Source of the DNA: Olegusella massiliensis
GTDB lineage: Bacteria > Actinomycetota > Coriobacteriia > Coriobacteriales > Atopobiaceae
Assembly (NCBI RefSeq): GCF_900078545.1
Contig: NZ_FLLS01000002.1
Location: forward strand, 186,001 to 250,000
Length of the DNA stretch: 64,000 nt
Reading direction: 5' to 3'
The first letter of the stretch is position 1, and each line of letters opens with the position of its first letter. The position numbers and the translations under genes are program-made. Shown in pieces: positions 7,712 to 63,586 of the stretch. The notes beneath the pieces are model-generated. The model had not been told where the DNA came from and searched no databases. It was given only the letters and a program-made list of their open reading frames with translations.

Positions 7712-7740
7712 AAAAAGGCTGCCAACAACTGACAGCCTTT
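7712..7740 (-). terminator. Terminator downstream of htrA
   Basis: The stem AAAGGCTG/CAGCCTTT (7714-7721 with 7733-7740) is followed on the minus strand by TTTTTG. It lies about 30 bases past the htrA stop. Confidence 0.85.
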
Positions 7741-7772
7741 GTGTACTTCTTTCACAAACAAAATAAATAGTT

Positions 7773-38727: not shown

Positions 38728-38795
38728 ATTATCCTCCAAAAGTTTACTGTCTCTTTTAAAAAGAATTCAGTTTTGGGACCTAGAATTGATGACAA

Positions 38796-41638: not shown

Positions 41639-41639
41639 T

Positions 41640-42464: not shown

Positions 42465-42529
42465 AGACTTTCCTTTCTCATGCAACCGTTACCCTACTGA
42501 ACTACTTCTATCTCACGTATTCCAAAACC

Positions 42530-43330: not shown

Positions 43331-43350
43331 CACTTACTCCAATCTCCATC

Positions 43351-45666: not shown

Positions 45667-46506
45667 CTATTCAGCTTCCAACAGTCCTCTAATAACCTCA
45701 ATTCCTCGTTCAGCAGAGAAATCGGGCTCGTTCCCATACCTACTGAAGAGTTCGAGTGCAAGATATCCGTCATAGTTAACCTGTTTTAGATAAGAGACAA
45801 TGCGAGGCCAATCCATAGCTCCATCGCCAGGGATAAGGTGATCTTCGCAGTCCGGCTCAGCATCGATGAAATGCATTTCTTTTACAGCTCCGGGCATTTT
45901 CTCCCAGTACTCACTCATCGGCTCACCACAGGTAAGTGGACAGGCAAGGTCCAAAACTACCTTGAGAGCCTCATTGTCCACCTGGTCTAAATAGTACTTA
46001 ACGTCGTCAGACGTGCAGCAAAGACGACCTTCAAAAGGAGTCACTGGCTCAAGAATAACAGTCTCCTCAAGGCTAGCCGCATGGTCCGCCAAGACCTTTA
46101 GATCCTCAACTACCTGGCTCTTCAAAGCTTCACGGTCCATTCCGAACCCAGGCATATTAATTGCAAACATAACCATCGGAGCTTCTATAGCTTTTGCCGC
46201 ATCAATCGTTGACAGGAAGTACTTCATCGAAATCTCGTTGAGCTCTTTTTCCCTATATACGAAGCTATGAGGTGATCCGGTATTTTCCGGAACATAGCTC
46301 ACGATGGGCATCTGATACTTCTGAACCATATCAAGAATGGCTTTTGAGCCTCCGTTTACTCCACCGAGGATATCTGGCGCATAAGCATGCGGCCTAAATC
46401 CACCAATGTCTATCCCGTCATAGCCACAACGTGCTGCTGCTGCAAAGCAACGCTCCAGCGGCCAACTTGAAAAACCTGTTGAAAAAAGTGACACTTTCAT
46501 GCTCAT
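45667..46506 (-). CDS. Sugar phosphate isomerase/epimerase, FrlC-like paralogue
   Basis: This 279-residue TIM barrel of the AP-endonuclease-2 family retains FrlC-type segments (SLFSTGFSSWPLERCF, GIDIGGFRPHAYAPDI, VSYVPENTGSPHSF, EPVTPFEGRL, HFIDAEPD). The metal ligands (Glu in LEPVTP, Asp in VLDLACP, His in MHFID, Glu in ALELFSR) appear intact. It probably epimerises a sugar or sugar-amine different from that of the 41640 enzyme. GGGAGATT precedes the ATG. Confidence 0.86.
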   Translation of the reverse strand: MSMKVSLFSTGFSSWPLERCFAAAARCGYDGIDIGGFRPHAYAPDILGGVNGGSKAILDMVQKYQMPIVSYVPENTGSPHSFVYREKELNEISMKYFLSTIDAAKAIEAPMVMFAINMPGFGMDREALKSQVVEDLKVLADHAASLEETVILEPVTPFEGRLCCTSDDVKYYLDQVDNEALKVVLDLACPLTCGEPMSEYWEKMPGAVKEMHFIDAEPDCEDHLIPGDGAMDWPRIVSYLKQVNYDGYLALELFSRYGNEPDFSAERGIEVIRGLLEAE

Positions 46507-46537: not shown

Positions 46538-47635
46538 TTAGTTGTTGAGAATCTTCGCTATCTTTTCCTCTACCTTTTGAAGCTCTGTTCCTTCAACTTT
46601 CCCGAAGCGCCAGCAAATCAAATCGCTCTCGCCACTTTCTAGCGTGTTGAAGTGACCATGAGACCTCTGGTATGCAGAACTTCTATTTGTTCCAGTAGAA
46701 GGTAGAGCGATACCTACACCGTCTTCGTCACCAGTTCTGCAGAACCAACGCAGGGCATAGGGAGCATAGGTCATATCCCAGCTCACATAGAAGCCATCGC
46801 CATCAGGCCTTTCCATAAGTGCGTGAGCCCAACCGTCAGAGTCGGCTTCGTATTTATAGTTGATGCACATCTCAGGGTCGAAAACCTGATTTTCAGAATC
46901 AAGTACGTCCGCGATCGTTGGGTCAGCAACCAGCTTTTTCCCGTATTCAAAAATCTTCTGGGCACGAGGAGATCCGTCTCCTTCGTCTGGCGCAGAGACC
47001 TGTATGTGCTCGCTATCAGTAGGACATGAATAGACAAAGCGGGAACCATCGCACCCAAGCCAATTCATATGGCAAAGCCATAGATATTCAAGAGGGCTAT
47101 GACGGCGATTCTCGATGCGAGCTGACATTTCTACCATCGTAGATGATTCATACAGCTTAAGCTCGGGGTTATAAGCCCAGTGTAATTCCTGACTATTGCG
47201 GAACACATAGCTGCCGCCTACAGACAAATATTTGCCAGCTTCATCAGTTCCAATGCCAATATATACATCATCAAATACCGCAAACGGCAAGACATCATGC
47301 ATGGGATAATCTGCTTCGCCGGCTTCTGGACCATTGATATTATTTAGGCCGCAGTGGTAAAGGAAGCCTCCGTAGTTATCCCCAAACTTTGTAGTAGCGA
47401 GCGGCTCTTCAAACATGGACTTTTGTGAGACGTCTTTGCCATCAAAGCAAAGTTGCCAAATCTGCATTCCCATATAGGGCAATACAACCATGCTTGAACG
47501 TGAATTCGAAATCTTCAGTCCATCAACTCCTGATTTGAAGCGAATTGCGGAGACAGAAAGTTCTCCATCTCGAAGCACTTCAAAGGGAAGATCGCCAAAC
47601 ATTTTTGGATTTATATTGACTTTCGTAAAAGACAT
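46538..47635 (-). CDS. DUF4432/aldose-epimerase-like protein
   Basis: This 365-residue protein has the galactose-mutarotase-like beta-sandwich pattern: SSMVVLPYMGMQIWQL early, HDVLPFAVFDDVYIGI, and HMNWLGCDGSRFVYSC in the middle. These fit the DUF4432 family found in sugar catabolic operons. A mutarotase or isomerase role is likely but unproved. The ATG at 47635 is chosen because GGGAGGG precedes it and the 50 residues upstream are not family-like. It follows the lyase gene across a hairpin. Confidence 0.8.
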   Translation of the reverse strand: MSFTKVNINPKMFGDLPFEVLRDGELSVSAIRFKSGVDGLKISNSRSSMVVLPYMGMQIWQLCFDGKDVSQKSMFEEPLATTKFGDNYGGFLYHCGLNNINGPEAGEADYPMHDVLPFAVFDDVYIGIGTDEAGKYLSVGGSYVFRNSQELHWAYNPELKLYESSTMVEMSARIENRRHSPLEYLWLCHMNWLGCDGSRFVYSCPTDSEHIQVSAPDEGDGSPRAQKIFEYGKKLVADPTIADVLDSENQVFDPEMCINYKYEADSDGWAHALMERPDGDGFYVSWDMTYAPYALRWFCRTGDEDGVGIALPSTGTNRSSAYQRSHGHFNTLESGESDLICWRFGKVEGTELQKVEEKIAKILNN

Positions 47636-47658
47636 TATCCCTCCCAGATAATCTATAC

Positions 47659-47693
47659 AAAGCAGCCGTCCCAAGAGTTGAGACGGCTGCTTT
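47659..47693. other. Intercistronic hairpin between the lyase-like and DUF4432 genes
   Basis: A perfect stem of about 12 bp (AAAGCAGCCGTC/GACGGCTGCTTT) lies in the 64-base gap between two genes of one operon. On the minus strand it lacks a T-run, so it may be a processing or stability element rather than a terminator. Confidence 0.65.
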
Positions 47694-47699
47694 AGTTTT

Positions 47700-48662
47700 C
47701 TATCGGAAGTCAGCTTTTCCTGCCATTTGGGCATCAATCTCAGTTGGTTGAATCGCATCGCCAAGGCTCTTGTAGCCAAATTCAACCATCAGCTCATCCA
47801 TCTCTTGCTTCACTTCAAATGGGACCCAATCTTGCTTGGCGCCCATACGGGAAACGGTAGGTTTCCCAAAGCCATACTGCATAGCCCAATTCCAACCTGC
47901 ATTAAATGGCGTCTTTTTAACGACGTTGCGAATCCGGAGCACCTTTTGCTGTGCCTCAATGCAGCCCTTCCAATCACCTGCGCGACCCTTCTCAACAATT
48001 TCAATCATTTCACGTGGGAAAGGTACTGCCATAAAGGAAACGCAGCCAACAGCACCCAGCAAAACCATGATACCGTCGAACCCGTCGCAGCCACCTAGGA
48101 AGTCAAAGCTTTCCGGGTCAATGCGCAAAACACACTGCTGGAAATTCACAACATTGGTTGAAGCATCTTTGAATCCGCGCAGATTCTTATGCTCATTAGC
48201 CAATTTTGCAAGTGTGTCAGGGGCAAACAAAACAGCTTGCTCAACACAGTTATAGATGTAAACGGGACGCTTTGCATAGTCAATCAGCTCTGCAGACCAA
48301 TCATAAAGAGCCTCTTGAGAGAATTTAAAGAAAGGAGGAGCGGTAATGCAATAGCAGTCAGCCAGGCCTGTCTCTTCATATGCATCAATGAGGCGCTTGT
48401 TGGCACGTACGTCGTTCTCAAAGGAGCAGGCCATAATTTTTGCTTTGCCCTGTGCAGCCTCATGGACGGCTTTTAGGACCTCAATTTTTTCGTCAAAGCT
48501 CAGTTCGTGAGACTCGCCCGCATAGCCATTAACAAAGAAGGCCTTGATTCCGCATTCAACCTGCCATGCAATCATATCGTGCAAATAAGGAAAATCTATT
48601 TCTCCCTCAGTTGTGAATGGTGTACAAATTTCCGTTAATACACCCTCTATAAAATGACCCAT
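47700..48662 (-). CDS. DapA/NanA-family class I aldolase-lyase
   Basis: This 320-residue TIM barrel has the family's Schiff-base Lys in LRGFKDAS and a Tyr in VYIYNC. The YNxP motif of DapA and NanA is altered (YNCVEQ), so it is neither a standard dihydropicolinate synthase nor a sialate lyase. Related enzymes cleave 2-keto-3-deoxy sugar acids. The ATG at 48662 has GGGAGGTAG upstream. It is the first gene of a four-gene operon with DUF4432, epimerase and kinase. Confidence 0.86.
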   Translation of the reverse strand: MGHFIEGVLTEICTPFTTEGEIDFPYLHDMIAWQVECGIKAFFVNGYAGESHELSFDEKIEVLKAVHEAAQGKAKIMACSFENDVRANKRLIDAYEETGLADCYCITAPPFFKFSQEALYDWSAELIDYAKRPVYIYNCVEQAVLFAPDTLAKLANEHKNLRGFKDASTNVVNFQQCVLRIDPESFDFLGGCDGFDGIMVLLGAVGCVSFMAVPFPREMIEIVEKGRAGDWKGCIEAQQKVLRIRNVVKKTPFNAGWNWAMQYGFGKPTVSRMGAKQDWVPFEVKQEMDELMVEFGYKSLGDAIQPTEIDAQMAGKADFR

Positions 48663-48727
48663 TACTACCTCCCTGTTGCCCGTTAACTCACTTGGTAAGA
48701 GTTTTACATACAACTTATTCCTTACTC

Positions 48728-48738
48728 TATACCAATAA
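48728..48738 (-). promoter_or_regulatory. TTATTGGTATA motif upstream of the lyase operon
   Basis: Read on the minus strand this is identical to the 11-mer before frlD at 43553. It lies about 66 bases before the 48662 start. Confidence 0.6.
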
Positions 48739-48752
48739 GCACTACGATAACA

Positions 48753-48762
48753 TTGCATGCAA
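48753..48762. promoter_or_regulatory. Palindrome TTGCATGCAA
   Basis: This perfect 10-bp palindrome is nearer the minus-strand operon. It differs from TTGTATACAA at 48836 only at the central symmetric positions. Confidence 0.45.
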
Positions 48763-49034: not shown

Positions 49035-50093
49035 ATGGAGGACATGAATCCAATTCTTCGCAATATCTACGAGCAACCCGATGAGCTCACAAAGGTTCTA
49101 GATAATGTGAGTGGTCCACAACTAGATACGGCTCTTAAGATTTCAAAGCTTATTCAAGTTTCGCATGAAGTCATACTTACTTCCATGGGAAGCGCCTTAT
49201 ATTCCCTCATGCCAATGTACGAAGCTCTAATCGCAAAGGGCATACGTAATGTTCGTCTCGTAGAAACTGCAGAACTGCTTCATCACCCAGAGCGAGCACC
49301 AAAAGATGCATTCTACTTACTCATGAGCAGGTCTGGAGAAAGTCGCGAGGTTGCAGACTTTTCGGTTTGGCTCCATGACAATGGATATCTTTCAGCGTGT
49401 ATAACAATGACTCCCGATTCGACCATGGCAAAGAACTGCGCCATTTCCCTACGGGATATAGCCAGCTACGACCAAATCGTCTGCATAAAGGCTTATAGCT
49501 CTATGGCCCTATGCGGTCTTGTACTTGTTGAGCTGCTTGAAAATGCTAGCTTTGATAAAAAGAAGGCAGAGACCCTCCATGCCGCCTTTGCCTGGATGCA
49601 AGCTCATAAAGAGGAAATTCTCAGCCAATTCGAATCCATTGATTTCTTGGCACGCGCAGATAGTTTTTACCTCATCTCTCGCGATGAGGGTATTAACATG
49701 ATGAGGAGTGCGTCGCTTTGGATTGAAGAAACTGCAAAGATACCTGCAAATGTTATGTCGATAGACAACCTTTACCATGGACCCATGGAGCTCATCAGAG
49801 CACAAAAAATAACAAAATCAAAAACTGTACCCATACTTCTAGATATATTTCCTGATAGTCGCTCCGAGATGATTTGGAATTATATTCAGGAGGCAACCTC
49901 AGATTCGATATATGTTGGAACAAATTCAAATGCTAAATCTGGCTTCTCTTTCATTTTGCCTGATCTTAAGCTCGATGGACCATGGATGATGCTCGTTGAG
50001 GCAATGTATTTCCAGATTCTTAGTTACCAATTAGCGCTAGTTAATGGCATCGAACCCGGCATGTTCTTTGAAGATGGGTGGATTGTACTGTGA
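49035..50093 (+). CDS. SIS-domain sugar isomerase/deglycase-like protein
   Basis: This 352-residue double-SIS protein is of the GlmS-isomerase/AgaS/FrlB group. The first SIS motif is LTSMGSALYS, then LLMSRSGESREVAD, and the second domain has DNLYHGPMELI, the usual position of catalytic Glu/His residues. It could be an aldose-ketose isomerase, a deaminase or a deglycase. GGGGGAT precedes the ATG. It heads the plus-strand operon SIS-ROK-SIS. Confidence 0.86.
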   Translation: MEDMNPILRNIYEQPDELTKVLDNVSGPQLDTALKISKLIQVSHEVILTSMGSALYSLMPMYEALIAKGIRNVRLVETAELLHHPERAPKDAFYLLMSRSGESREVADFSVWLHDNGYLSACITMTPDSTMAKNCAISLRDIASYDQIVCIKAYSSMALCGLVLVELLENASFDKKKAETLHAAFAWMQAHKEEILSQFESIDFLARADSFYLISRDEGINMMRSASLWIEETAKIPANVMSIDNLYHGPMELIRAQKITKSKTVPILLDIFPDSRSEMIWNYIQEATSDSIYVGTNSNAKSGFSFILPDLKLDGPWMMLVEAMYFQILSYQLALVNGIEPGMFFEDGWIVL

Positions 50094-51025
50094 GCACGCT
50101 ACAAAAACATACACAAAAATTAGTAGCAGGCATTGATATCGGTGGGACGAGAACTAAATGCGGATTGATTAATTCTTCTGATGGCTCTCTTCTCGATATG
50201 AAGGTTTTTCCTACTGAGCATGTTTCTGAACAGCGCTTTTTTGACGATATCGCCACTGTACTCTCCTCATTCAATAGAAGTACGAGAGACGTCCGGGCAG
50301 CGGGCGTTTCAATCGGATCGTACGTCTTTTCAGATGGAAGCATCGATGGACTTTCCTCAATGGTTCCATTCCTGACTCATGGCTATCCTCTAAAAACTAA
50401 ATTTGAGGAAGCTCTTGGTATGCCAGTTCAAATAGATAACGATGCGAGACTCATTGGACTAGCTGAAGCTCTCTATGGGGAGGGCAAGGGCTTTTCACGC
50501 GTGCTCACAATTACTATCGGAACTGGAATCGGCATTGGTCTTTGTGAAGACGGAAAGCCCTATGGAAAAGAGTCTCACATCCATCTAGCTGGTCATATTC
50601 GCGTTAGAGAAGGTGGGGAGTATCCCTGGCTAGACAGTACTCCATGTTATTGCAATATGACTGGCTGCCTGGAGTCTACTTGCTCTGGAACTGCTCTACT
50701 TGCTCACATACATCATGAGATTAGTGAGGAACTCACAGTAGAGGATATGTTCACTCTCGCGAGGCAAGGAAATAATCGGGCTCTCTCGCTTGTTAATTGG
50801 TATCTTAAGCTTCTAGCAAGAGCGCTGAATCAATATGTTTATCTCTATTGTCCTGATGTAATCGTACTCGGAGGTGGAGTTGCTCAAGGTTTAAGGCCTT
50901 ATCTTGACTCGCTTCGCTCACAACTCGTTGCTTCCGTTTACGAGGGCCAAAAAACAGAACTGCGTATAACAAAATTAAAGGAAAGTTCCGGGGTTATTGG
51001 CGCCGCTTCCCTTGTAAAAATTTAA
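50090..51025 (+). CDS. ROK family sugar kinase
   Basis: This 311-residue kinase has the phosphate loop AGIDIGGTRTKCG, the catalytic Asp in IDNDARL, TITIGTGIGIG and the zinc motif CYCNMTGCLES. ROK kinases with these motifs act on glucose, N-acetylhexosamines or similar sugars. The GTG at 50090 overlaps the upstream TGA (GTGA) and is preferred to a GTG 12 bases earlier. It is translationally coupled to the SIS gene before it and lies 11 bases before the next SIS gene. Confidence 0.9.
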   Translation: MSTLQKHTQKLVAGIDIGGTRTKCGLINSSDGSLLDMKVFPTEHVSEQRFFDDIATVLSSFNRSTRDVRAAGVSIGSYVFSDGSIDGLSSMVPFLTHGYPLKTKFEEALGMPVQIDNDARLIGLAEALYGEGKGFSRVLTITIGTGIGIGLCEDGKPYGKESHIHLAGHIRVREGGEYPWLDSTPCYCNMTGCLESTCSGTALLAHIHHEISEELTVEDMFTLARQGNNRALSLVNWYLKLLARALNQYVYLYCPDVIVLGGGVAQGLRPYLDSLRSQLVASVYEGQKTELRITKLKESSGVIGAASLVKI

Positions 51026-51036
51026 GGAGAGAGACT

Positions 51037-52128
51037 ATGGCAAAACCAACAATGTTCGATTACGTAAAGGAAACTCCCGAAATTCTACGTTCGCTCATCA
51101 ATGGAAAACCTGACATGCCTCTCGCTCAACAGTTTGCGGAGAAAAAATATTCTCACATTCGAATTGTTGCCTGTGGATCGTCCCGAAACGCAGCTGAGAT
51201 AGCTCGTCCTTTCCTTCGCCATGTCCTCAGAGTTGAAGTAAGCGTAACTGAGCCATACAGTTTTTGCGCCTATGAGCACGAACTTCCTGAGAATGAATTT
51301 TGCTTCGTAGTCTCGCAAAGCGGATATTCAACCAATGCGCTTGCAGCTCTTGATCTCATTCGCTCTTCGAATAAAAAAGCCATTGGTGTAACCGGCGATA
51401 TTCATTCTGATTTTTCAGCTGCTTCCGACGTCCTCATTGACTATGGAGTTGGAGAAGAACAGGTTGGTTATGTAACAAAAGGCGTCACATCCTTGGCAGT
51501 CTTCCTTATGTTATTCGCGCTTGACGCAGCTGTTTTAAAGAATGGAATTTCTCAAAAAGAAGTCTCGGAATACGAACAGCTTATTGAGCAAACCATCCAT
51601 AGTTTTGAACAGGTTATCGATAGCACTGCTAATGTAATTTCTAAACGTTATAAAGAGCTCTCGAGCATGGACCGTGTTTTTCTTATCGGAGCTGGGGCAA
51701 ATTACGGCATAGCGCGCGAGGGAGCTTTGAAGTTTGGCGAATGTCTTCAATTCCCTGCTATAGCCTATGAACTCGATGAGTATTTACATGGTCCAAATCT
51801 GCAACTTGATCCAAACTACACGATTTTTGTCAATGTAGTTGGAGAAATCGATCACAAGCGTGCAGAGCAAATCATTCAGGCAACTCGTCTTGTCACCGAT
51901 AAAGTTTTTGTACTTTCCGATAAAGATCTTGACGGTATGACCGACATTCTGATTGATAGCAAGCTGGACTCACTCTGCGGACCAGTTGCACTCTTGCCGT
52001 TTTACCAAATCAGCGCTTGGAAACTAACTGAAGATAAACATCTCTGGCACAAGCATCCGCTGGTTGCACAGTTTGATCATGCATTAAGCGGCAAGAGTGA
52101 GAACTACGTCGATAAAGAGGTCCTATAG
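51037..52128 (+). CDS. SIS-domain deglycase/isomerase-like protein
   Basis: This 363-residue double-SIS protein is close in form to GlmS isomerase and to fructosamine-phosphate deglycases (FrlB/GfrF/FraB). It has ACGSSRNAAEIARPF, VSQSGYSTNAL, and YELDEYLHGPNLQ in the second half, where these enzymes keep catalytic Glu and His. No glutaminase domain is present. AAGGAGAGA precedes the ATG. It ends only 13 bases from the convergent ROK gene, with no terminator between them. Confidence 0.87.
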   Translation: MAKPTMFDYVKETPEILRSLINGKPDMPLAQQFAEKKYSHIRIVACGSSRNAAEIARPFLRHVLRVEVSVTEPYSFCAYEHELPENEFCFVVSQSGYSTNALAALDLIRSSNKKAIGVTGDIHSDFSAASDVLIDYGVGEEQVGYVTKGVTSLAVFLMLFALDAAVLKNGISQKEVSEYEQLIEQTIHSFEQVIDSTANVISKRYKELSSMDRVFLIGAGANYGIAREGALKFGECLQFPAIAYELDEYLHGPNLQLDPNYTIFVNVVGEIDHKRAEQIIQATRLVTDKVFVLSDKDLDGMTDILIDSKLDSLCGPVALLPFYQISAWKLTEDKHLWHKHPLVAQFDHALSGKSENYVDKEVL

Positions 52129-52141
52129 GACTCGCGACCTT

Positions 52142-53479
52142 TTAGTGTTGCTCATCCCACAAAATAAAATTGTTTCGCTGAGCTCGTGAGATAAAAAAGT
52201 TGTCCCAAAAGCAATCAGCCATCAGGCCTTTTGCTAATGGGTCAGCTTGAGTAAGCTCATCATGCAAAACGATACAGGCAGGGTCAAGCAAGGTGCTTGC
52301 AGTAGCAAGCAGTTTTCCAAGATTGGCGTAGTAATTCTTAGGCGAGCTCTTAGCAAGGCTATCAAGACAATCGCCTTGCGGGTCTAAACCTGAGTCTATG
52401 GAAATCTGCCCAATATATCCCGCACCCGTAGGAAGCAATTGCTCACTGCTGGCACTACGCAGGGATATTTGCGTTTTCCCTTTTAAGCGAGAAACATGGA
52501 GCTTAATTTTTTCTTGAGTATTTATGCATTTCTCAGCTTCGTGTAGTTGAATCCCTCGACGCGCGCATGCTGCAGCGCCTAAAAATGCGCTTTCATATCC
52601 CAAAGGAGTTGAAACAACATCTGGATGCGCCAAATAGACAGGTATCTTTTGCATCTCGGATTCAAGAGGAGCTCTATAGTAGTCGTAAAGCAGAGCAACG
52701 CCACCGCCGAGCACAATACGCTGAGGGCCGAGAATAATAGCAGCTTGCGCCAATGCCTTTCCAAGGTATATTCCCTCGCGGCGAAATGTCTCATGAGCAG
52801 CACAGTCTCCTGCGTCAGCCCTTTGAGAAATTTCTAGCGCTCCAAAGTCTCCAGAAGGAACTATTCCCCCGAGCTCCTCATAAGTCCTAACCATTCCTTT
52901 TGTTGAGCAATACGCCTCTAGGCGCCCGTATGCATTACCTGAGATATCTGGTCTCGCTACTGAGCTTATAGCGGAAAGACCAATTTCCCCGGAAAGTAGG
53001 TGGGAGCCATAGTACAAATTATTTTTTATAAATGTGCCGCCCCCTATGCCAGAACTGATTGTGACGTAGAAGAAATCTTTCAAATTTTTTCCTGCACCAA
53101 ACATTGACTCAGCAAGTGCACAGGCATTGCAGTCATTATCACCAAAAAAAGGAATATTTAGCGCTTGGGACAGCTCCGCACAAACATCTAAATTCCTTAC
53201 GACAGGATTATCAGAATCAATCCAAAGACCCGAGGTAGGATTAGTAAAACCCGGGATTGTAATTCCGCCTGCAATGATGTCGTGAACAATTTCTGGATGC
53301 CTCTGTAGGTCATCTCTAACTGATAACACAAGCTGGGGAACTATATCTTGTTGCTTAGTACTTTTCCATTCATGCCTAGTAGAAAAGAGTTTCGCTCCAT
53401 CTTGAGTGCAGACACCCGTAATATATTTTGAACCGCCAACATCAATTGCAACAATAAGAGATGATGCATCAGTATGCAT
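52142..53479 (-). CDS. ROK-family protein with an extra C-terminal domain
   Basis: This 445-residue protein is about 130 residues longer than usual ROK kinases. The ROK part (about 1-312) has VAIDVGGSKYITG, the catalytic FGDNDCNACAL and ISSGIGGGT. The zinc site is missing: GEIGH reads GEIGL and the CxCGxxGC cluster is replaced by NAYGRLEAYCSTKG. The extension (about 315-445) has no motif I recognise. There is no HTH, so it is not a NagC-type regulator. AGGGGAG precedes the ATG. It follows a SIS gene, mirroring the ROK-SIS pair on the other strand. Confidence 0.86.
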   Translation of the reverse strand: MHTDASSLIVAIDVGGSKYITGVCTQDGAKLFSTRHEWKSTKQQDIVPQLVLSVRDDLQRHPEIVHDIIAGGITIPGFTNPTSGLWIDSDNPVVRNLDVCAELSQALNIPFFGDNDCNACALAESMFGAGKNLKDFFYVTISSGIGGGTFIKNNLYYGSHLLSGEIGLSAISSVARPDISGNAYGRLEAYCSTKGMVRTYEELGGIVPSGDFGALEISQRADAGDCAAHETFRREGIYLGKALAQAAIILGPQRIVLGGGVALLYDYYRAPLESEMQKIPVYLAHPDVVSTPLGYESAFLGAAACARRGIQLHEAEKCINTQEKIKLHVSRLKGKTQISLRSASSEQLLPTGAGYIGQISIDSGLDPQGDCLDSLAKSSPKNYYANLGKLLATASTLLDPACIVLHDELTQADPLAKGLMADCFWDNFFISRAQRNNFILWDEQH

Positions 53480-53487
53480 AGACTCCC

Positions 53488-54597
53488 CTAGTCCTCATAT
53501 GCAGGATTCAATAAATCATCGAGTTCTGAAACCTTCGGTATTGTCACATCTATTCCGACTTGTTGAGCTATAAGCGCTGATAACACCTGAAGTGGAATCA
53601 GATATTCAAGCGCGCAAATATCTTCGATATCACAAGAAGCTATCGGCAAGGACAGCAAATCCGTTTGCTGCTGGACAGAATGTATAACCACGATATGATC
53701 GCAATATTTTTGAATTCCTCGAGCGAGAATATCCATCCTATCTCGCTCTTCTCCAGGCTCTGCAGAAAGCAAGAAGACTACGTCATTTTTATGCACAGCC
53801 CTGAGCGGACCATGAAGGGTTTCTTCTAACTCAATTGCACAGGTTGGGCGCTCATGAGTTTCAATAAATTTAAGAGTTCCTTCCAGGCAGGTACCTAAAT
53901 TCGCCCCATACCCCACAAGATAATATGCAGGAGCACTCATAACAATTTCCTGATTCTGTGCGAACCAAGCAATAGTATTATCAATCGATTTTTGGATAGA
54001 ATCGGGCATATTGCAAAGAGCGTTTATTGATAGCTCATAATCGTTTTCTTTTAAATTCCCGAGGGCATATCCAGCCTCAACAAGACAGGTCATTACCAAA
54101 AATAAAGCCATGGTTTGGTGCTTTGTTGCGGCGACCGAGCGCTCGCCTAATCCCAGCTTGCTGAGAACAACATCACATTCGCGAGCCAAGACTCCTTTTG
54201 GATTTAGTGTCGTGCAAACAACAGGAATATGCTCACTTCGAGCACGACGCGCTGCATCAACTTGACCTTTTGAGTGACCCGTTTCTGCAGGGCAAATGAG
54301 CAGTATCTGCGAAGAATTTAAATCTCCCGTCGGATCAAAATTTTCGTGGTGGGCAAATACTGCCGCGGGAACAACGTCAACTGCCGCACGTAAGCATCGT
54401 TCGGTAAGAAACCTTAGAGTTTCCCCTGCGTAATATGGTGATCCATTCCCCACAAAGAGAACTCGCTTGAATTTGTGCTGCATACATAATTCTACAAATG
54501 GGGCTGTCCAATCTTTATGCGAACTCCAAAGCTCACGCAGAAGGAAAGGTTGTTCCTCTATCTCTTCAAGCATCGCGCTTTGTTTTTCAGCACTCAT
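53488..54597 (-). CDS. SIS-domain deglycase/isomerase-like protein
   Basis: This 369-residue double-SIS protein has VGNGSPYYAGETLRFL, CPAETGHSKGQ and the second-domain ELEETLHGPLRA segment with the conserved Glu and His. Together with the ROK gene eight bases downstream it forms a kinase-SIS pair. The Shine-Dalgarno AAAGGAA lies next to the T-run of the terminator at 54615-54640, so expression may depend on read-through. Confidence 0.86.
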   Translation of the reverse strand: MSAEKQSAMLEEIEEQPFLLRELWSSHKDWTAPFVELCMQHKFKRVLFVGNGSPYYAGETLRFLTERCLRAAVDVVPAAVFAHHENFDPTGDLNSSQILLICPAETGHSKGQVDAARRARSEHIPVVCTTLNPKGVLARECDVVLSKLGLGERSVAATKHQTMALFLVMTCLVEAGYALGNLKENDYELSINALCNMPDSIQKSIDNTIAWFAQNQEIVMSAPAYYLVGYGANLGTCLEGTLKFIETHERPTCAIELEETLHGPLRAVHKNDVVFLLSAEPGEERDRMDILARGIQKYCDHIVVIHSVQQQTDLLSLPIASCDIEDICALEYLIPLQVLSALIAQQVGIDVTIPKVSELDDLLNPAYED

Positions 54598-54609
54598 AGG
54601 GTTCCTTTC

Positions 54610-54640
54610 AAAAACCCCGCCTGTAAAACTCCAGACGGGG
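54610..54640 (-). terminator. Terminator or attenuator between the amidohydrolase and SIS genes
   Basis: The stem CCCCGCCTG/CAGACGGGG (54615-54623 with 54632-54640), with one mismatch, is followed by TTTTTG on the minus strand. The next start codon is only about 15 bases further, so there is no room for a separate promoter between them. Confidence 0.8.
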
Positions 54641-54670
54641 CATCTCTACACAATAAAGGCGAGCTTGTGC

Positions 54671-56203
54671 CTATAACGTTGAGTAAACTATGCGACCGTC
54701 AACCATAGTCAGACAGCACGAACAACTCCGAGCATCTTCTGGCTTAAGATCCAAAATATTCTTATCAAAGACCGCTATATCTGCTAGCTTTCCTTCTTCA
54801 AGCGTACCCGTAGAATCTTCTTGCTCCAGGTCATATGAGCTCCCCGCAGTCCATGCGTGCAACAACTCTGCAGAACTAATCATATTGTTTGGATTGAAGG
54901 GCTCTCCACCCTCTGGGAAGAAGCCTCCACACGCACTGTAGACTCCAACTCCTAGATCATCTTTAGTCATAGGAAGGTCAGTTCCACAGGAAACCGTTAT
55001 GCCAGCGTCTAGCATGGCTCGACGATTCCAATAATGAGTGCCTCTTTCAGCCCCTATCTTTGTTGATATCATCTCAAGCTTGCTTTTTCTATCTGCAATA
55101 GACTGAATAAGCGGATACACCTCTGCCACAATTCCAAGCTTTGCCATGCGCTCATAATCTTTTGGATCTGCGCACTCGAGGTCGGTCATAGCTTGGCGGA
55201 GAACAAGGTGGCCATTCTCATCACGAGAGCATTTTTCAAAGATATCTATTGCATGAGAAACTGCACCATCTCCCTGGGTATGTAGGGAGAAACGAAGACC
55301 AGCCGCATCGGCTTTCAGTACCTCGTCTTCATGATGCTTCCAATCAATATCAAGAGCGCAGCAAGTATCACTATCGAGATAAGGTTCTTTCATTTCTCCT
55401 TCGGTCTGACTAATTGAGCCATCCGTCATTTGGTTGAACCCAGAAAAAGAAATAAAGGGATCCTTCTCAAACTTATTTTTTAGAGCTACTCCATAGGAGA
55501 TATTTGCATCTTCTCCTACTGGCTGGCTCATCAGATTGACCCGAAGACTGAGCTCACCTGCATCCTCAAGCTTCTTTACCTCATCGATAAACCAGTAGTC
55601 GTCATATCCCATTTCTTTTGTAGAGGTGACGCCATATGAGTTCATCATCTTCTGGTAATCCCGATAAAGCGGGAGTGAAAGCTCAGTGTCCTCAATAACA
55701 GCTTTGAGAAGTAGATAGGCTTTTTCAGACCAGCATGCTGCAGGCGTAAATCCGAAGATTTTTTCTGCAGCCGTATTCATTACCATGGCTTCTGCGCCTT
55801 CAGAAACGAGCACTGCTGGAACATCGCCAAAAGCGTCATCCATCTTTTTTTCTTGAGAGACAGCAAGCGACATAGGCAAATCATGGCCAATAAAAAGATT
55901 GGGGCGAGGCTGTGCTTTAACGAGTTCAATAGCCTCATCTAGGCTTGTAACCTGAGAAAGGTCTGCGCCAGCATGCTGTAAAAGCCACCCATTAAAAAAG
56001 CAATGTACGTCCACGAGACCTGGTGTTATCAGCTTATCGCCCAGCTCGAGAACCTTGGTGGATGGTCCACAATGCTGAGATCCATTCCCTTCTCCTACCG
56101 CAATAATTTGGTTTCCCTCAACTGCAACAAAACCAGCAAAACAAGCATTCGATACAGAATCAAAAATTGCGGAAGATTTTAAGATATATGAAGCATTTGA
56201 CAA
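54671..56203 (-). CDS. YtcJ-like amidohydrolase (Amidohydro_3 family) with altered metal motif
   Basis: This is a protein of about 510 residues of the YtcJ-like amidohydrolase group. Supporting parts are ITPGLVDVHCFF, SLHTQGDGAVSHAI, SCGTDLPMT and the C-terminal GTLEEGKLADIAVFDKN. The usual HxH metal motif reads His-Cys-Phe, so one ligand is missing, while later ligands look intact. I prefer a TTG start at 56203 because AAGGAG abuts the ATG at 56212 with no spacer. It follows the PfkB gene. Cleavage of an amide in the conjugate is possible but unproved. Confidence 0.82.
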   Translation of the reverse strand: MSNASYILKSSAIFDSVSNACFAGFVAVEGNQIIAVGEGNGSQHCGPSTKVLELGDKLITPGLVDVHCFFNGWLLQHAGADLSQVTSLDEAIELVKAQPRPNLFIGHDLPMSLAVSQEKKMDDAFGDVPAVLVSEGAEAMVMNTAAEKIFGFTPAACWSEKAYLLLKAVIEDTELSLPLYRDYQKMMNSYGVTSTKEMGYDDYWFIDEVKKLEDAGELSLRVNLMSQPVGEDANISYGVALKNKFEKDPFISFSGFNQMTDGSISQTEGEMKEPYLDSDTCCALDIDWKHHEDEVLKADAAGLRFSLHTQGDGAVSHAIDIFEKCSRDENGHLVLRQAMTDLECADPKDYERMAKLGIVAEVYPLIQSIADRKSKLEMISTKIGAERGTHYWNRRAMLDAGITVSCGTDLPMTKDDLGVGVYSACGGFFPEGGEPFNPNNMISSAELLHAWTAGSSYDLEQEDSTGTLEEGKLADIAVFDKNILDLKPEDARSCSCCLTMVDGRIVYSTL

Positions 56204-56234
56204 GGAAATCATCTCCTTAAATAACTGCTACGAA

Positions 56235-57164
56235 TTAGTGTTCTTCAATAAATTGTTCAACTTCTTCAAGGAATCGATAAGCAGGAATTGTTCCGTCAAT
56301 GGTGACGCAAAGAGCCGAATAATAGCTTGCCCACTTGAGCGATTCTTCAAGACTCTTTCCCCAGTGCAAGCATGCTACAGTCGCTGCCATGAAACCGTCA
56401 CCAGCGCCTGCTGTATTTACGACCTTATCAACATGAATAGCGGGCACTTCATAAAACGCGTTATCGCTATCAATCGCACAAGATCCCTTGTCGCCAAGGG
56501 TGAGCACGACATTTGCAGCACCCATCTTTTCCTTTATTTTCACTACCAAATCGTGAGGATTAGAGTCACGGGACAGTCCAGTAAGCTGTTCGCCCTCAAC
56601 TTCATTCACGAAAAGATAATCAACATAAGGCAATGCCTCAAGTGCTTCATCTGGTAAGGGAGATGGATTCAAAGCTGTAATCATGCCTTTGTCATGAGCA
56701 TAGCGCAAACCAGAAAGTGCAACCTTATAAGGAACCTCAAAACCAGCTATAAAAAACCGTGCCCCTTGAAGATTATCAATAGCGTCAGTAACTTCTTTAA
56801 CGGTAAGGTAAGCGCTCGAGCTATCACCATCAATGATTGAATTTCTGCCATCGGGGCTTACGAGTATTAGCCCCGTTCCGGTAGCAATATTGGGATCCTT
56901 ATAAAGGTAAGTCGTATCTGCCCCAGCTTCGTGCATCCACTTTTCGCCTAGATCACCCCAGGGGTCACAACCTACTTTTCCGATATAAGCAGTAGGTACA
57001 CCGAGACGTCCCAGTGCAACCGTTACATTCGACCCTTTCCCTCCGTCTTCGGCTACATGCCAGCCTTTTACAGAAAGAGTTTCTCCCCATTTTGGCATAC
57101 GATCACAGTATGCATATTGGCCAACGCCATGGCTATTCAGTACTATTACATCATTTTTTTGCAT
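56235..57164 (-). CDS. PfkB/ribokinase-type sugar kinase
   Basis: This 309-residue kinase is a paralogue of the one at 44670. It has EDGGKGSNVTVALGRLGVPT, GKVGCDPWGDLG and the catalytic NTAGAGDGFMAATVA. The ATG at 57164 is preferred over 57173 because AAAAGG abuts the earlier one. The chosen start lies two bases after the stop of the NagB-like gene, so the two are co-translated. Confidence 0.9.
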   Translation of the reverse strand: MQKNDVIVLNSHGVGQYAYCDRMPKWGETLSVKGWHVAEDGGKGSNVTVALGRLGVPTAYIGKVGCDPWGDLGEKWMHEAGADTTYLYKDPNIATGTGLILVSPDGRNSIIDGDSSSAYLTVKEVTDAIDNLQGARFFIAGFEVPYKVALSGLRYAHDKGMITALNPSPLPDEALEALPYVDYLFVNEVEGEQLTGLSRDSNPHDLVVKIKEKMGAANVVLTLGDKGSCAIDSDNAFYEVPAIHVDKVVNTAGAGDGFMAATVACLHWGKSLEESLKWASYYSALCVTIDGTIPAYRFLEEVEQFIEEH

Positions 57165-57166
57165 CT

Positions 57167-58063
57167 TTACCATCCTTTTTGCTCATGAGACATAGGGTGA
57201 TCAATGGTGTATTCATCAGTAAAGAGCGTGATGTCAGGCACATACTGAGGAAGTATTGTTACCGGATATTCTGTTGTTGGTTCACTAAAGAGAAGAATAC
57301 GGCAAGCGGTCTTCTTCCAGTCACCCGTGGCAACCATATAAATAGCGCGTTTTGCTGAGCAGATAACGTGGAACCCAATGGTAACGCCTTTGGGAGGAAC
57401 GCGATCCAGGCATGTTCCAAATGAACGCTCCGCCATAGCAACCATCGTGTCTGAATTGATGTCAACTATTCTGGTTTTAGAGTTTGCATATTCATCAACG
57501 CTGATGTGCTGCCAATAATTCCTTGGCTCCTCATCAAATGCCACCAAACCCGTAGCACCAATACCAGCCCAAACTGTGTCTATTCCCCCAAGCTTGTCGC
57601 ACATTTCATCGGGATAATCTAAATCATTGATACGCGGCCAAATCCTGTGATCCTCCGCAGGACGCAAGTCCTCGTCAATACGATTGTAAAAGCACGCAAG
57701 CATGGTCCCTTCTAGGCTCTCATAGGTATCAGCAACTGGATAGGGACGGCATTCCCAGTCAAGAAATTCATCCATATGGAAAACCCAGAGATTCTTACAA
57801 TCAATACGCTCTTCATTGACGCGGCTAACAAACGTGTCATATTCATCGCAAGGACCCGCTGGAAGCACCCATTTTGTTGGAAGACCCTGAGCATTATGCT
57901 CTTTAACCTCGTCAGCCATCAGGTTGCCGATTTCCTGCATCATCTCTTTGCGATTTTTGCGTATAGCTAGCTTTGTTTTTAGATCATCGCGTTTAAGAAG
58001 ATCTTGCCAGGGGATTTCACACCAAGAAAAAATTTCATCTTTCGTAAGCCTATTTGTAAGCAT
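57167..58063 (-). CDS. NagB-like sugar-phosphate deaminase/isomerase family protein
   Basis: This 298-residue protein of the NagB/6-phosphogluconolactonase fold has WVLPAGPCDEY, the conserved FHMDEFLDW, GIGATGLVAFDEE and IGFHVICSAKRAIYMVATGDWK. Compared with true NagB (about 260 residues) it carries an N-terminal extension of about 35 residues, and the catalytic-loop region is divergent. Aminosugar-phosphate deamination or isomerisation is the likely role. GGAGAG precedes the ATG at 58063. Confidence 0.85.
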   Translation of the reverse strand: MLTNRLTKDEIFSWCEIPWQDLLKRDDLKTKLAIRKNRKEMMQEIGNLMADEVKEHNAQGLPTKWVLPAGPCDEYDTFVSRVNEERIDCKNLWVFHMDEFLDWECRPYPVADTYESLEGTMLACFYNRIDEDLRPAEDHRIWPRINDLDYPDEMCDKLGGIDTVWAGIGATGLVAFDEEPRNYWQHISVDEYANSKTRIVDINSDTMVAMAERSFGTCLDRVPPKGVTIGFHVICSAKRAIYMVATGDWKKTACRILLFSEPTTEYPVTILPQYVPDITLFTDEYTIDHPMSHEQKGW

Positions 58064-58084
58064 AAATTATCACTCTCCGCATAA

Positions 58085-58129
58085 CAAAAGCCACCCGATT
58101 TTGCAAATTGAGCAGGTCAATCGGGTGGC
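58085..58129 (-). terminator. Terminator after the FrlA-like permease gene
   Basis: A perfect 11-bp stem GCCACCCGATT/AATCGGGTGGC (58090-58100 with 58119-58129) is followed by TTTTG on the minus strand. It lies between the permease and the NagB-like gene, so downstream genes need read-through or their own promoter. Confidence 0.8.
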
Positions 58130-58177
58130 CATAAATTAACGCCTTCTTGTTCGGTCTACTACAAAACCCAACTATTA

Positions 58178-59994
<1,817 letters not shown>

Positions 59995-60774
59995 ATGGGT
60001 TGTCTCAGTGGAAGCTTTTATTCTCATTCTCTTCTCATTACGACAGAGGTCAATGTCATCGTTCCCGACAAATCTGAGGACTTTTGGACAGAAATAGATG
60101 ATGAGGTCAGGGTCTTATATCTCTTGCATGGGCTGGGATCCAATGCCGATGAATGGATGCGATTCTCTCAGATAGAAGCTTTCAGTAAGATATACAACTT
60201 GGCAGTTATCATGCCTAACGGCAATAGAAGTTTTTATCACAATCTCACAACAGGACCTCGCTATTTTGACTGGATAACGCACGAGCTTCCTAGTCTTATT
60301 GAGCAATGGTTTAATTTTCCTCGTGATAGAGAGCACACGTTCATTGCTGGAGAAAGTATGGGGGGCTATGGAGCCTTACAAGCCGCTTTCGCTCGTCCAG
60401 ACTACTTCTTTGCCTGCGCTGCCCTATCACCTGTTACAAGCCCTTCAGAGCTCTGCAAGTCCCAGCCAAACTTATGGTGGGGCAAGGAGGAACAAACCAC
60501 CATCTTTGGTCAGGAAGGCGCATCTCAAAAAGATGATGTCCTATTTGCTGCTCAAAAGTCAGTCGCTGAACACGGCGCTAAGAAGATGCCAAAGATTCTT
60601 CAAATGGTTGGTTCAAATGACCCACTCATACCTCAAGCGGCCCAACTTGATACGAAATTAAAAGAAATGGGACTTGAAACAAGCTTTGATTCCTGGGAGG
60701 GTCGGCACGATTTTATTTTTTGGAATGTGGCAATTGAAAAAGCCATCCGCTCTTTTTGCGGTCTGGCTTCTTAA
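59995..60774 (+). CDS. Alpha/beta-hydrolase esterase, S-formylglutathione-hydrolase/feruloyl-esterase type
   Basis: This 259-residue esterase has the oxyanion region YLLHGLGSNADEW, the nucleophile Ser121 in GESMGGYGA, an Asp in GSNDPLIP and the His in GRHDFIFW. No signal peptide is present, so it is cytoplasmic. The ATG at 59995 has GAAAGG upstream. It stands alone in the locus and may remove acyl groups from imported conjugates; this is inference. Confidence 0.88.
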   Translation: MGCLSGSFYSHSLLITTEVNVIVPDKSEDFWTEIDDEVRVLYLLHGLGSNADEWMRFSQIEAFSKIYNLAVIMPNGNRSFYHNLTTGPRYFDWITHELPSLIEQWFNFPRDREHTFIAGESMGGYGALQAAFARPDYFFACAALSPVTSPSELCKSQPNLWWGKEEQTTIFGQEGASQKDDVLFAAQKSVAEHGAKKMPKILQMVGSNDPLIPQAAQLDTKLKEMGLETSFDSWEGRHDFIFWNVAIEKAIRSFCGLAS

Positions 60775-60791
60775 AACCTGCTTTATAAACA

Positions 60792-60829
60792 GAAAAAGGA
60801 GCCACCACTTTAAAAGCAGTGGCTCCTTT
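60792..60829. terminator. Convergent terminator after the esterase and epimerase genes
   Basis: An 11-bp stem AAAGGAGCCAC/GTGGCTCCTTT (60795-60805 with 60819-60829) has A-rich and T-rich flanks and can serve both strands. Confidence 0.85.
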
Positions 60830-60848
60830 CATCCAAGTTCGACGTCGC

Positions 60849-61715
60849 TTAATCCTTCAAGCCAAGCTCATTGCGCAAATACTCGCAGGTTTTAGCATGT
60901 GCTGTATGCGGATCTTCCCAGTAGATTGAGTCATTTACTTCAAGGTCAATACCGTTTTCAAAGTCATGCTCCTCAAGTGTGGTAATAAATCCGGCAAGTT
61001 TTTCTTTACCATATTCTCCGCTACCGACAATTTCATGATGGCTATCCGAATAATGAATCCATTCAATCTTATCGTTGAAGGTATCAAAATACTGCTCGAG
61101 TGTCTCGCTCTGTACCTCCATGGCAGTCAGGTCAACACAGACCCTTAAATTAGGTGAGCCGACCTCGTTGAGCATGCGTTCCACGTCAGCTATGGTCGTA
61201 ACAAGATTTGACTCATAGGGCTGCAGCTGCTCAAGTGGAACAATGATATCTTCCTTTTCTGCTATATCCATAACTGTGCGAAGCCGCTCAACACAACGTT
61301 TAAATGACTCCTCGCGGGGGATATTGCGCAAGCCACAGCCGCTATTTACAAAAACGCGGGGACAGTTAAGCACATGTGCATCTTCGAAAGCCCACTTAAA
61401 ATATTCGATAGTTCTTTGGGTGATTGACTCATAGGGATCTGAGAAATTATAGGGATACCCCAGTGTCTCTGGTGTATAGATAGTCACCTTTTGATCTCGA
61501 GCCTCAAGCTCTGCACAAATCTTCTTGAGATGCTTTTCTGCCTCGCTGCTTGTCTGATAATCAAGACGACAGTAGAGAGGCTCAGCACCCCACAGGTCAA
61601 TACCATGAATACCGAGTTCATACATTGAATCCAGGAAATACTCAAGCGTGTAATGGACGTATGAGGTGCCCATTACCGATACATCTTTCATGCCGATAGT
61701 AGACAAGCGAAACAC
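60849..61715 (-). CDS. Sugar phosphate isomerase/epimerase, FrlC-like paralogue
   Basis: This 288-residue AP-endonuclease-2-type TIM barrel has HGIDLWGAEPLYCRLDY, IYTPETLGYPYNFSDP, VPLEQLQPYESNLV, VCVDLTAME, WIHYSDSHHE and GIDLEVND, which follow FrlC in order. A GTG at 61715 with GAAGGGAA upstream is used; an ATG at 61691 is the alternative. It lies downstream of an FrlB-like gene in the three-gene operon SDR-FrlB-epimerase. Confidence 0.86.
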   Translation of the reverse strand: MFRLSTIGMKDVSVMGTSYVHYTLEYFLDSMYELGIHGIDLWGAEPLYCRLDYQTSSEAEKHLKKICAELEARDQKVTIYTPETLGYPYNFSDPYESITQRTIEYFKWAFEDAHVLNCPRVFVNSGCGLRNIPREESFKRCVERLRTVMDIAEKEDIIVPLEQLQPYESNLVTTIADVERMLNEVGSPNLRVCVDLTAMEVQSETLEQYFDTFNDKIEWIHYSDSHHEIVGSGEYGKEKLAGFITTLEEHDFENGIDLEVNDSIYWEDPHTAHAKTCEYLRNELGLKD

Positions 61716-61759
61716 TTCCCTTCTCCAAGTAAAAAGTGAGCCTTAACAAGCAAGCATTA

Positions 61760-62755
61760 TTAATATTGCAGCTGACGATAGTAACGACGGATCTCCATTG
61801 GGTGACAATTCAAGCGCTCAATATGAATATCAATTCGGTTGGTAACCTGATGAGTAACCAAATGGCTCAAATAACCACGATATTTCTCTGAGATTCCCTC
61901 GAGCTCATAGTCTTTTGAATCAACGAAGGTGTAACGAGAGCAAACCTTTGGAAGGAACTTTGCAACGCGCTCAGAAAGGGGGCGCTCCGCATCCTCGCCC
62001 AAAAATACCGTCACATTTGTGTCACGGTCAACTATCTCAAACATGCCATGGAAGAACTCAGCGGCATGAATGGACTTCGTGCGAATCCAGTGCTGCTCTT
62101 CCCAGTAGCACATTGCATATGAATACGTTGAACCATACTGCTCACCTGCACCAACAAAATAATGTAGCTTGTCATCGTGATGCTCTTCGGCAAAACGCTG
62201 TGCAAATTCATCAGATGCCTTTGCAACAGAAACAAGATCTTCGGCGAGATGTGCGTCAAGCTGAGAATAATACTCATTATACTGAGGGAACTGTCCAACA
62301 TTCTTCATGAGGCGATCGGCGACCATAAAGAACTTGAGCTGCTCATTCTCGGGGTAGGTAATACAATAGCTAACCTGCTTTGCCAATGTTGAATCAGCAA
62401 CATCAATAAAACCAATACTTGTTGCTCCAATTTTGTTGAGCTTATCCATAACGGTAACCATCTCAGCTGTGTTACCAGAAACGGAAGAAATAACAATCAG
62501 GCTCTTATCAGTGATGCGCTTGTTGCCCAGCGTGTTATAGCGTGCAGCATTCTCGACAAGGATTGGCAGATCACTTAGCTCTTTAATGTGAGATTCTGTT
62601 TGAAGTGCAGAAGCATAGGTTCCACCAATACCCATATAGCAGATAAGGTCATAGCCTTTTTCGCAGACCTCGTCTACAACTTTTTCGACTTCACCGCGGA
62701 TTGCAAGAGCTCCTTTAACACTTTCGAGCTCATGTTGTTCATCGTACTTAAGCAT
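61760..62755 (-). CDS. frlB: FrlB-like SIS-domain deglycase
   Basis: This 331-residue SIS protein resembles, from memory, E. coli FrlB, which splits fructoselysine 6-phosphate into glucose 6-phosphate and lysine. Supporting parts are the SIS motif MGIGGTYASALQ, SSVSGNTAEMV, IHAAEFFHGMFEIV with the conserved Glu and His, and the terminal MEIRRYYRQLQY, which resembles the RRYYGGLVEY end of FrlB. Length is typical. GGAGG precedes the ATG. Of the four SIS proteins in the locus this is the best FrlB candidate. Confidence 0.84.
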   Translation of the reverse strand: MLKYDEQHELESVKGALAIRGEVEKVVDEVCEKGYDLICYMGIGGTYASALQTESHIKELSDLPILVENAARYNTLGNKRITDKSLIVISSVSGNTAEMVTVMDKLNKIGATSIGFIDVADSTLAKQVSYCITYPENEQLKFFMVADRLMKNVGQFPQYNEYYSQLDAHLAEDLVSVAKASDEFAQRFAEEHHDDKLHYFVGAGEQYGSTYSYAMCYWEEQHWIRTKSIHAAEFFHGMFEIVDRDTNVTVFLGEDAERPLSERVAKFLPKVCSRYTFVDSKDYELEGISEKYRGYLSHLVTHQVTNRIDIHIERLNCHPMEIRRYYRQLQY

Positions 62756-62812: not shown

Positions 62813-63586
62813 TTACTGCTTTCCTAGATATTTTCCGCCGTCTGCGTGAATGTCAGCACCATTGATAATGAATGCATCGTCAGAGGCTAGGAAAGCGAAG
62901 ATGCCTGCAAGCTCAGAAGGCTCCTCAGCACGACCGAGAGGCCCATAGTCAACCAAGTCAGACTCATTCTTATAGTCCATGTTGCCGAAATCATCAGCAG
63001 TTGAATCCATCATTGGGGTCTTTACCCATCCAGGAGAGACGCAATTGACGCGAATCTTATTGCCATTCTCATTGGCGAGACATTGAGTCAAATGAATGAC
63101 TGCAGCCTTGCTCATTGCATAGGGTGCCTCATATGCAAAGCATGCTGTTCCATCAACGGATGCGGTGTTAAGAATAACACCCTCTCCCTGCTCTTTCATG
63201 ATAGGAAGAACGTGATGGATCATGGCATAAGTTCCGAGAAGATTTACTTCAATTACTTTGCGAGCTTCAGCAACAGATTGATTCTCAACTGCACCAATAG
63301 TTCCACCGATACCTGCAATATTGCACAGAACGTCGATTTTTCCGAACTTATTCTTAATATCTGCAATTGCTGCAGCAACTGCTTCATCATCGGTAACGTT
63401 GACAGTATGGATGTAGTAACTTCCCTCGGGAAGTTGCAAATCTGCTGCGGACTTTTTGATAGCCTCCTCATTGAGGTCAAGCATCGCCACAGTAGCACCC
63501 TCATCTACAAAACGCTTTGTCGTTGCTTTGCCGATTCCGCTCGCGGCACCCGTCACGATTACGAACTTGCCTTTGATTCCGTTCAT
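62813..63586 (-). CDS. Short-chain dehydrogenase/reductase
   Basis: This 257-residue SDR oxidoreductase has the NAD(P) site VTGAASGIGKAT, an Asp after the second strand (MLDLNEE) that favours NAD, NIAGIGG, the catalytic Ser in NTASVDG and YAMSK with the catalytic Tyr and Lys. It probably oxidises a sugar or polyol hydroxyl. TAGGAGGAG precedes the ATG. It heads the operon with FrlB-like and FrlC-like genes and has a TTAATGGTATA motif about 50 bases upstream. Confidence 0.92.
   Translation of the reverse strand: MNGIKGKFVIVTGAASGIGKATTKRFVDEGATVAMLDLNEEAIKKSAADLQLPEGSYYIHTVNVTDDEAVAAAIADIKNKFGKIDVLCNIAGIGGTIGAVENQSVAEARKVIEVNLLGTYAMIHHVLPIMKEQGEGVILNTASVDGTACFAYEAPYAMSKAAVIHLTQCLANENGNKIRVNCVSPGWVKTPMMDSTADDFGNMDYKNESDLVDYGPLGRAEEPSELAGIFAFLASDDAFIINGADIHADGGKYLGKQ

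Follow-up and report, generated by a model that had tools for sequence, protein, structure and literature searches.

Introduction

Glycated amines of the Amadori and Heyns type, sugar-amino-acid compounds such as those of heated food, are degraded by gut bacteria through pathways and enzymes of which only a few are known. In the gfr operon of Salmonella (GfrABCDEF), which relies on a mannose-family phosphotransferase system (PTS), GfrE acts on glucoselysine-6-phosphate and GfrF on fructoselysine-6-phosphate (PMC12675984, main text, followed here although a figure legend in the same article assigns E and F oppositely); the role of GfrE is also reported in PMC12136445. The frl operon of Escherichia coli (FrlABCDR) is built around a permease, an epimerase, a kinase, a deglycase, and a GntR-type regulator. 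In the fra locus of Salmonella, the kinase FraD and the SIS-fold deglycase FraB serve a single route with a single substrate, fructose-asparagine. Use of fructoselysine has reportedly been described in Collinsella intestinalis as well; on ROK-family kinases or Coriobacteriia in glycated-amine catabolism, our literature search, which left subscription papers mostly outside its reach, found nothing relevant. Here we examine a 64,000-nucleotide stretch of the genome of Olegusella massiliensis (Coriobacteriia, Atopobiaceae; contig NZ_FLLS01000002.1, positions 186,001 to 250,000), hereafter the window, which holds an island of about 27 kb and 25 genes (36334-63586). Four of these genes encode SIS-domain proteins and are named by position: SIS1 (49035), SIS2 (51037), SIS3 (53488), and SIS4 (61760). 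We propose, with a probability of about 0.62, that they perform the C-N cleavage (or an isomerization) in an island serving several routes for glycated amines, fructoselysine and glucoselysine being examples of such Amadori and Heyns compounds.

Comparison with Described Systems

Most of the island reads as a variant of the frl, gfr, and fra kind, apparently bundling several parallel routes in one locus. Like the gfr operon, it would hold one GfrE-type enzyme (SIS2) and one GfrF-type enzyme (SIS4); unlike it, no mannose-family PTS EIIA, EIIB, EIIC, or EIID gene is found among the island genes, a permease and separate kinases standing in their place, SIS2 is coupled to a ROK kinase and to SIS1, two further SIS genes are present, and the deglycases are only about 30% identical. 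With the frl operon it shares an FrlA-like permease, FrlC, FrlD, GntR/FrlR-like regulators, and an SIS enzyme of the FrlB superclade, but it has two FrlD and three FrlC-type genes, a deglycase of GfrF type rather than of E. coli FrlB type, and many extra genes. The fra locus follows the same logic of a kinase followed by an SIS deglycase, and the FraB pair Glu214/His230 is matched in all four SIS proteins; SIS4 is, however, nearer to GfrF than to FraB.

Fold and Phylogeny of the SIS Proteins

A sequence-only reading of the window had placed four SIS-fold genes at these positions, and open reading frames occur at exactly those coordinates: SIS1 (49035-50093, + strand, 352 amino acids), SIS2 (51037-52128, +, 363 amino acids), SIS3 (53488-54597, -, 369 amino acids), and SIS4 (61760-62755, -, 331 amino acids). 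With Pfam, SIS2 (68.6 bits), SIS3 (53.5), and SIS4 (47.0) exceed the SIS cut-off of 25 bits, and SIS1 falls below it (19.6). We nevertheless regard the predicted two-domain SIS fold of SIS1 as secure, because a profile from its nine orthologues matches the GlmS isomerase domain and its AlphaFold model (pTM 0.83) matches GlmS/GFAT isomerase domains (E ~1e-15, TM ~0.73). In the genome of the window we detected six SIS proteins, these four together with GlmS and AgaS, which are encoded elsewhere; with four of the six lying within 14 kb, the clustering is not due to chance. All four show similarity to the GlmS profile, yet all miss the GlmS equivalog cut-off, and a Pfam scan finds the glutaminase domain of GlmS in none of them. 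The AgaS model TIGR02815 (cut-off 529 bits) gives at most 39 bits with any of the four.

The phylogeny was inferred by maximum likelihood (IQ-TREE, LG+C20) from 79 sequences, comprising the four SIS proteins with their orthologues, E. coli FrlB, AgaS, and GlmS, B. subtilis FrlB (3eua), FraB (9otj), GfrE and GfrF as read from the gfr operon of Salmonella arizonae (L139), and others; a second, reduced tree left AgaS out, and alternative placements were compared by the p value of the approximately unbiased test (p-AU). In this comparison, which the sequence-only reading had proposed, the four proteins lie on old and distinct lineages. SIS4 is sister to the GfrF clade (support 100/98) within a superclade of FrlB, FraB, and GfrF (100/99), with 30% identity to GfrF over 337 amino acids. 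SIS2 and its relatives are sister to, and not nested inside, a clade of GfrE plus Lmo0035 (100/89), and SIS2 is 28% identical to GfrE over 352 amino acids. SIS3 branches deeply on the GfrE side (86/83) and is 24% identical to GfrE, and its best structure match is Lmo0035 (2aml), itself a member of the GfrE clade. Thus, the assignment of SIS4 to a GfrF-type and of SIS2 to a GfrE-type lineage, two known kinds of deglycase, is well supported by sequence comparison, and SIS3 probably belongs to the GfrE side. SIS1, on a stem of 3.4 changes per site, pairs with AgaS (89/73), a placement flagged as long branches meeting; on the basis of the two trees, we discounted an AgaS affinity, probably a product of long-branch attraction. 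Against the two outcomes by which the sequence-only reading would have been refuted, SIS1-4 are neither tight recent duplicates, an origin rejected by their separate deep branches, nor all part of the AgaS/GlmS isomerase group.

Active-Site Residues

A Glu located 16 residues before His-Gly is invariant in the island SIS sequences examined (35/35: nine SIS1, ten SIS2, five SIS3, and eleven SIS4). This Glu and the His align with Glu488/His504 of GlmS and with Glu214/His230 of FraB, the latter counted in a 345-amino-acid construct taken to be 20 residues longer than the 325-amino-acid form; FraB E214A is catalytically inactive (PMC12755824). The second-domain His-Gly segment that the sequence-only reading had ascribed to each protein is therefore present throughout, but the acidic residues said to lie near it are less well kept in SIS1, where position -3 is Asn instead of Glu. 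That only SIS4 ends like FrlB proves correct by alignment: besides Glu214/His230 it carries an RRY...Y C-terminus.

A second pair, Lys(-19)/Glu(-23) when numbered from His-Gly, corresponds to Lys485/Glu481 of GlmS. It is found in every SIS2, SIS3, GfrE-clade, PTS-linked SIS2-like, 3knz, 3g68, and GlmS sequence and, by alignment, in AgaS; it is absent from all SIS4, GfrF-clade, and FraB sequences, from B. subtilis FrlB, from the nine SIS1, and from E. coli FrlB, in which Glu(-23) is accompanied by Thr at -19. Where the function of the compared enzymes is known, users of 2-amino-2-deoxy-aldose phosphates have the pair and users of 1-amino-1-deoxy-ketose phosphates do not. Presence or absence of Glu481/Lys485 may thus offer a simple residue rule predicting the use of Heyns or Amadori phosphates, respectively, by SIS deglycases, under which SIS2 and SIS3 would be Heyns-type and SIS4 and SIS1 Amadori-type. 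SIS1 appears mixed: it retains Glu488/His504, a GlmS-like phosphate loop (SRSGES), and the Lys403 region, lacks Glu481/Lys485, with Trp replacing Lys485, and has no C-terminal RRY motif. Given these residues, SIS1 could act on a 1-amino-ketose-6-phosphate or as an isomerase.

Conservation in Relatives

Seven relatives offered enough sequence for mapping the island (G020, G031, G048, G026, G053, G087, and G024), and three more allowed a partial map. In all seven a core is retained, consisting of the GntR pair, Amidohydrolase_2, FrlC1, FrlD1, FrlD2, the permease, FrlC3, and SIS4, in the same order or as rearranged blocks. Of 121 genomes of the family, an identical set of 10 has orthologues of SIS1, ROK1 (50078-51025, +), and SIS2, always contiguous and in fixed order, and the end of SIS1 overlaps ROK1 in every intact copy; orthologues of SIS4 (at least 71% identity) are found in those ten and in G024. 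SIS3 and its constant partner ROK2 (52142-53479, -) travel together in five. Naive chance values for this co-occurrence, about 1e-14, are too small given the kinship of the genomes, although the carriers span seven genera. The family-wide search for SIS1 thus returned nine carriers besides the genome of the window. Four sampled congeners of that genome lack the gene, so the island is patchily distributed. A SIS1 profile run on 396 genomes drawn across the phylum, few of them from the family, found SIS1 in the genome of the window alone; a scan of a genome collection with SIS1 gave no match, and four Firmicutes genomes with gfr genes gave a single partial SIS-domain match. Within the genomes covered, SIS1 defines an orphan SIS family, and it is the most novel element of the island.

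Elsewhere in the family, gfr-type operons that encode GfrB, GfrC, and GfrD homologues along with GntR regulators also contain relatives of SIS2 and GfrF. The nearest solved relatives of ROK1 include N-acetylglucosamine (GlcNAc) kinases, that is, kinases of 2-amino-aldoses; those of ROK1 and ROK2 together are GlcNAc, N-acetylmannosamine (ManNAc), and glucose kinases. G024 is the only genome whose island, retrieved in full, lacks SIS1-ROK1-SIS2, and a PTS gfr operon in this genome includes a SIS2-like gene (L150). A second SIS2-like gene was seen in none of the ten triplet carriers (0/10). This pattern fits, without proving it, a takeover by ROK1 of a phosphorylation step that the PTS would otherwise perform on the SIS2 substrate, and makes the ROK kinase a candidate non-PTS glucoselysine kinase.

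Several of the PTS gfr-type operons (L146, L147, L148, L149, and L155) carry kinases of about 500 amino acids with FrlD similarity beside or between the GfrF-like and SIS2-like genes, an unusual arrangement, since phosphorylation of the substrate would be expected from the PTS itself. In another PTS operon (L156, in G031), two SIS genes of the FrlB/FraB side (2945-3970 and 6796-7809) flank the PTS genes.

Proposed Routes and Alternatives

From gene content, conservation, phylogeny, and active-site residues, we infer the following substrates, enzyme pairings, and order of reactions. Unphosphorylated glycated amines would enter through the FrlA-like permease (58178-59683, -), the conserved core transporter of the island; FrlC-type enzymes would bring some of them to the usable epimer, dedicated cytosolic kinases would phosphorylate them at C6, and the SIS enzymes would split the products into hexose-6-phosphate and free amino acid. 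In a first, Amadori route, the fructoselysine 6-kinases FrlD1 (42530-43333, -) and FrlD2 (43614-44399, +), which score 335 and 384 bits against an NCBIfam equivalog cut-off of 247, would supply fructoselysine-6-phosphate to SIS4 as a GfrF-type deglycase. In a second, Heyns route, ROK1, as proposed kinase of a glucoselysine-like 2-amino-aldose, would do what the mannose PTS does in gfr operons, and SIS2 would serve as a GfrE-type deglycase for compounds like glucoselysine-6-phosphate. ROK2 and SIS3 would make up a third route, cleaving another 2-amino-aldose-6-phosphate, either a second Heyns compound or an amino sugar. SIS1, translationally coupled to ROK1 and SIS2 and predicted to be a lyase or isomerase of sugar-phosphate amines, might act on a 1-amino-ketose-6-phosphate or isomerize an intermediate of the second route; it would either add a further Amadori-type enzyme to the island or serve the ROK1-SIS2 route as a partner or isomerase. 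The parallel specificities that the sequence-only reading had derived from the four genes are thus well supported for SIS4 and SIS2 and likely for SIS3, which has its own ROK kinase, but the number four is not established: SIS1, always found in one overlapping gene triplet together with ROK1 and SIS2, may not be an independent fourth deglycase. Tentatively, and at somewhat less than even odds, the triplet could represent a new, PTS-independent route for Heyns amines, with a ROK kinase in place of the PTS and with SIS1 as either an undescribed SIS class using an amino-ketose phosphate or an obligate SIS2 partner.

Several observations weigh against a multi-route glycated-amine island. SIS4 and SIS2 share only about 30% identity with characterized enzymes, so that their substrates may differ in the amino acid or the sugar, and the rule separating aldosamine from ketosamine users rests on few characterized members. 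The FrlA-like permease reaches 337 bits against an NCBIfam FrlA equivalog cut-off of 800. SIS4 likewise scores 53 bits against an FrlB equivalog cut-off of 430, for which reason we do not file it as FrlB sensu stricto; Salmonella GfrF also fails this cut-off (98 bits), which suggests that the model is restricted to FrlB of the E. coli type. In the reduced tree, a GfrE side including SIS3 and excluding SIS1 was not recovered, though it was not rejected (p-AU 0.44), and SIS1 fell loosely among GfrE-side rows, a position on the FrlB/GfrF side being likewise not rejected (p-AU 0.17). A rival reading holds that the SIS genes encode isomerases of AgaS/GlmS type, or arose by recent duplication, and have no role as deglycases. 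We consider this highly improbable: the pairing of SIS1 with AgaS in one tree and the GlmS profile similarity of all four are what speaks for it, but that pairing is flagged as a long-branch one, SIS1 falls loosely among GfrE-side rows once AgaS is left out, the four branches are deep and separate, SIS4 is nested in the deglycase clade, and none has a glutaminase domain, so that it is contradicted for SIS4 and SIS2.

Rather unlikely, though less remote, is that SIS2, SIS3, and a NagB-like protein of the island are ordinary amino-sugar-6-phosphate deaminases or isomerases fed by ROK and PfkB kinases, with glycation products handled only by SIS4 and the frl genes. The GlmS isomerase domain, AgaS, and NagB-II do share the SIS fold and the catalytic Glu/His with the island proteins, the full set Glu481/Lys485/Glu488/His504 of SIS2 and SIS3 is that of GlmS and AgaS, and the amino-sugar and glucose kinases related to the ROK proteins would suit such a role. 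The tree, on the other hand, joins SIS2 to GfrE, away from GlmS and AgaS, the NagB-II and GlmD cut-offs are far from reached (70/430 and 39/580 bits), and SIS2 relatives adjoin GfrF-like genes in gfr-type PTS operons. A stronger competitor, which we hold to be a real prospect if short of an even chance, keeps the glycated amines and reduces the SIS-dependent specificities from four to three: SIS1, ROK1, and SIS2 would form one route, with SIS1 and SIS2 acting as a hetero-oligomer or as isomerase and then lyase on the ROK1 product. The shared distribution of the three genes, their fixed order and overlap, and the confinement of SIS1 seen in the phylum-wide sample agree with it. However, characterized FraB and FrlB work as homodimers (PMC9609667), PTS-linked SIS2-like genes exist without SIS1, and co-inheritance is no proof of a single reaction path. 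Overall, we continue to favor the multi-route island.

Other Genes of the Island

Three FrlC-type genes are present: FrlC1 (41640-42485, -), a fructoselysine 3-epimerase by NCBIfam (455 bits, cut-off 305), the FrlC-like epimerase FrlC2 (45667-46506, -), and FrlC3 (60849-61715, -), an FrlC-like TIM-barrel epimerase that adjoins SIS4 in every island. ROK2 has a C-terminal extension of about 135 amino acids beyond the ROK domain, which has no Pfam match and is kept in its orthologues. A putative esterase (59917-60774, +) is a conserved member. The adjacent regulators, GntR/UTRA regulator a (FrlR-like; 38796-39527, -) and GntR regulator b (39528-40256, -), have counterparts in homologous GntR pairs that accompany gfr-type genes in L150, L152, L154, L155, L157, and L158, which hints that control by two regulators is shared.

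The island is bounded by a BtpA/SgcQ family protein (36334-37161, -) and an SDR dehydrogenase (62813-63586, -); its GC content is slightly lower than outside (0.43-0.465 vs. 0.46-0.51), and the genes just past the right end of the window are ordinary. BtpA/SgcQ, an FGGY-family kinase (37204-38739, -), and the Amidohydrolase_2 (40787-41701, -) and Amidohydrolase_3 (54671-56212, -) family proteins are conserved members whose part in a deglycase pathway, if any, is not obvious. A DUF4432 protein (46538-47785, -) overlaps the reading frame of a DapA-family aldolase/lyase (47700-48758, -), and its true start probably lies inside its open reading frame. Two further kinases of the ribokinase family are encoded, PfkB_a (44670-45629, -) and PfkB_b (56235-57173, -), the second overlapping and paired with the NagB-like gene (glucosamine-6-phosphate deaminase family; 57167-58063, -). 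The pairs PfkB_a plus DapA and PfkB_b plus NagB-like are both present in the window, G020, G031, G053, G087, and G024 and both missing in G048 and G026, and this shared presence and absence suggests that they form one further pathway.

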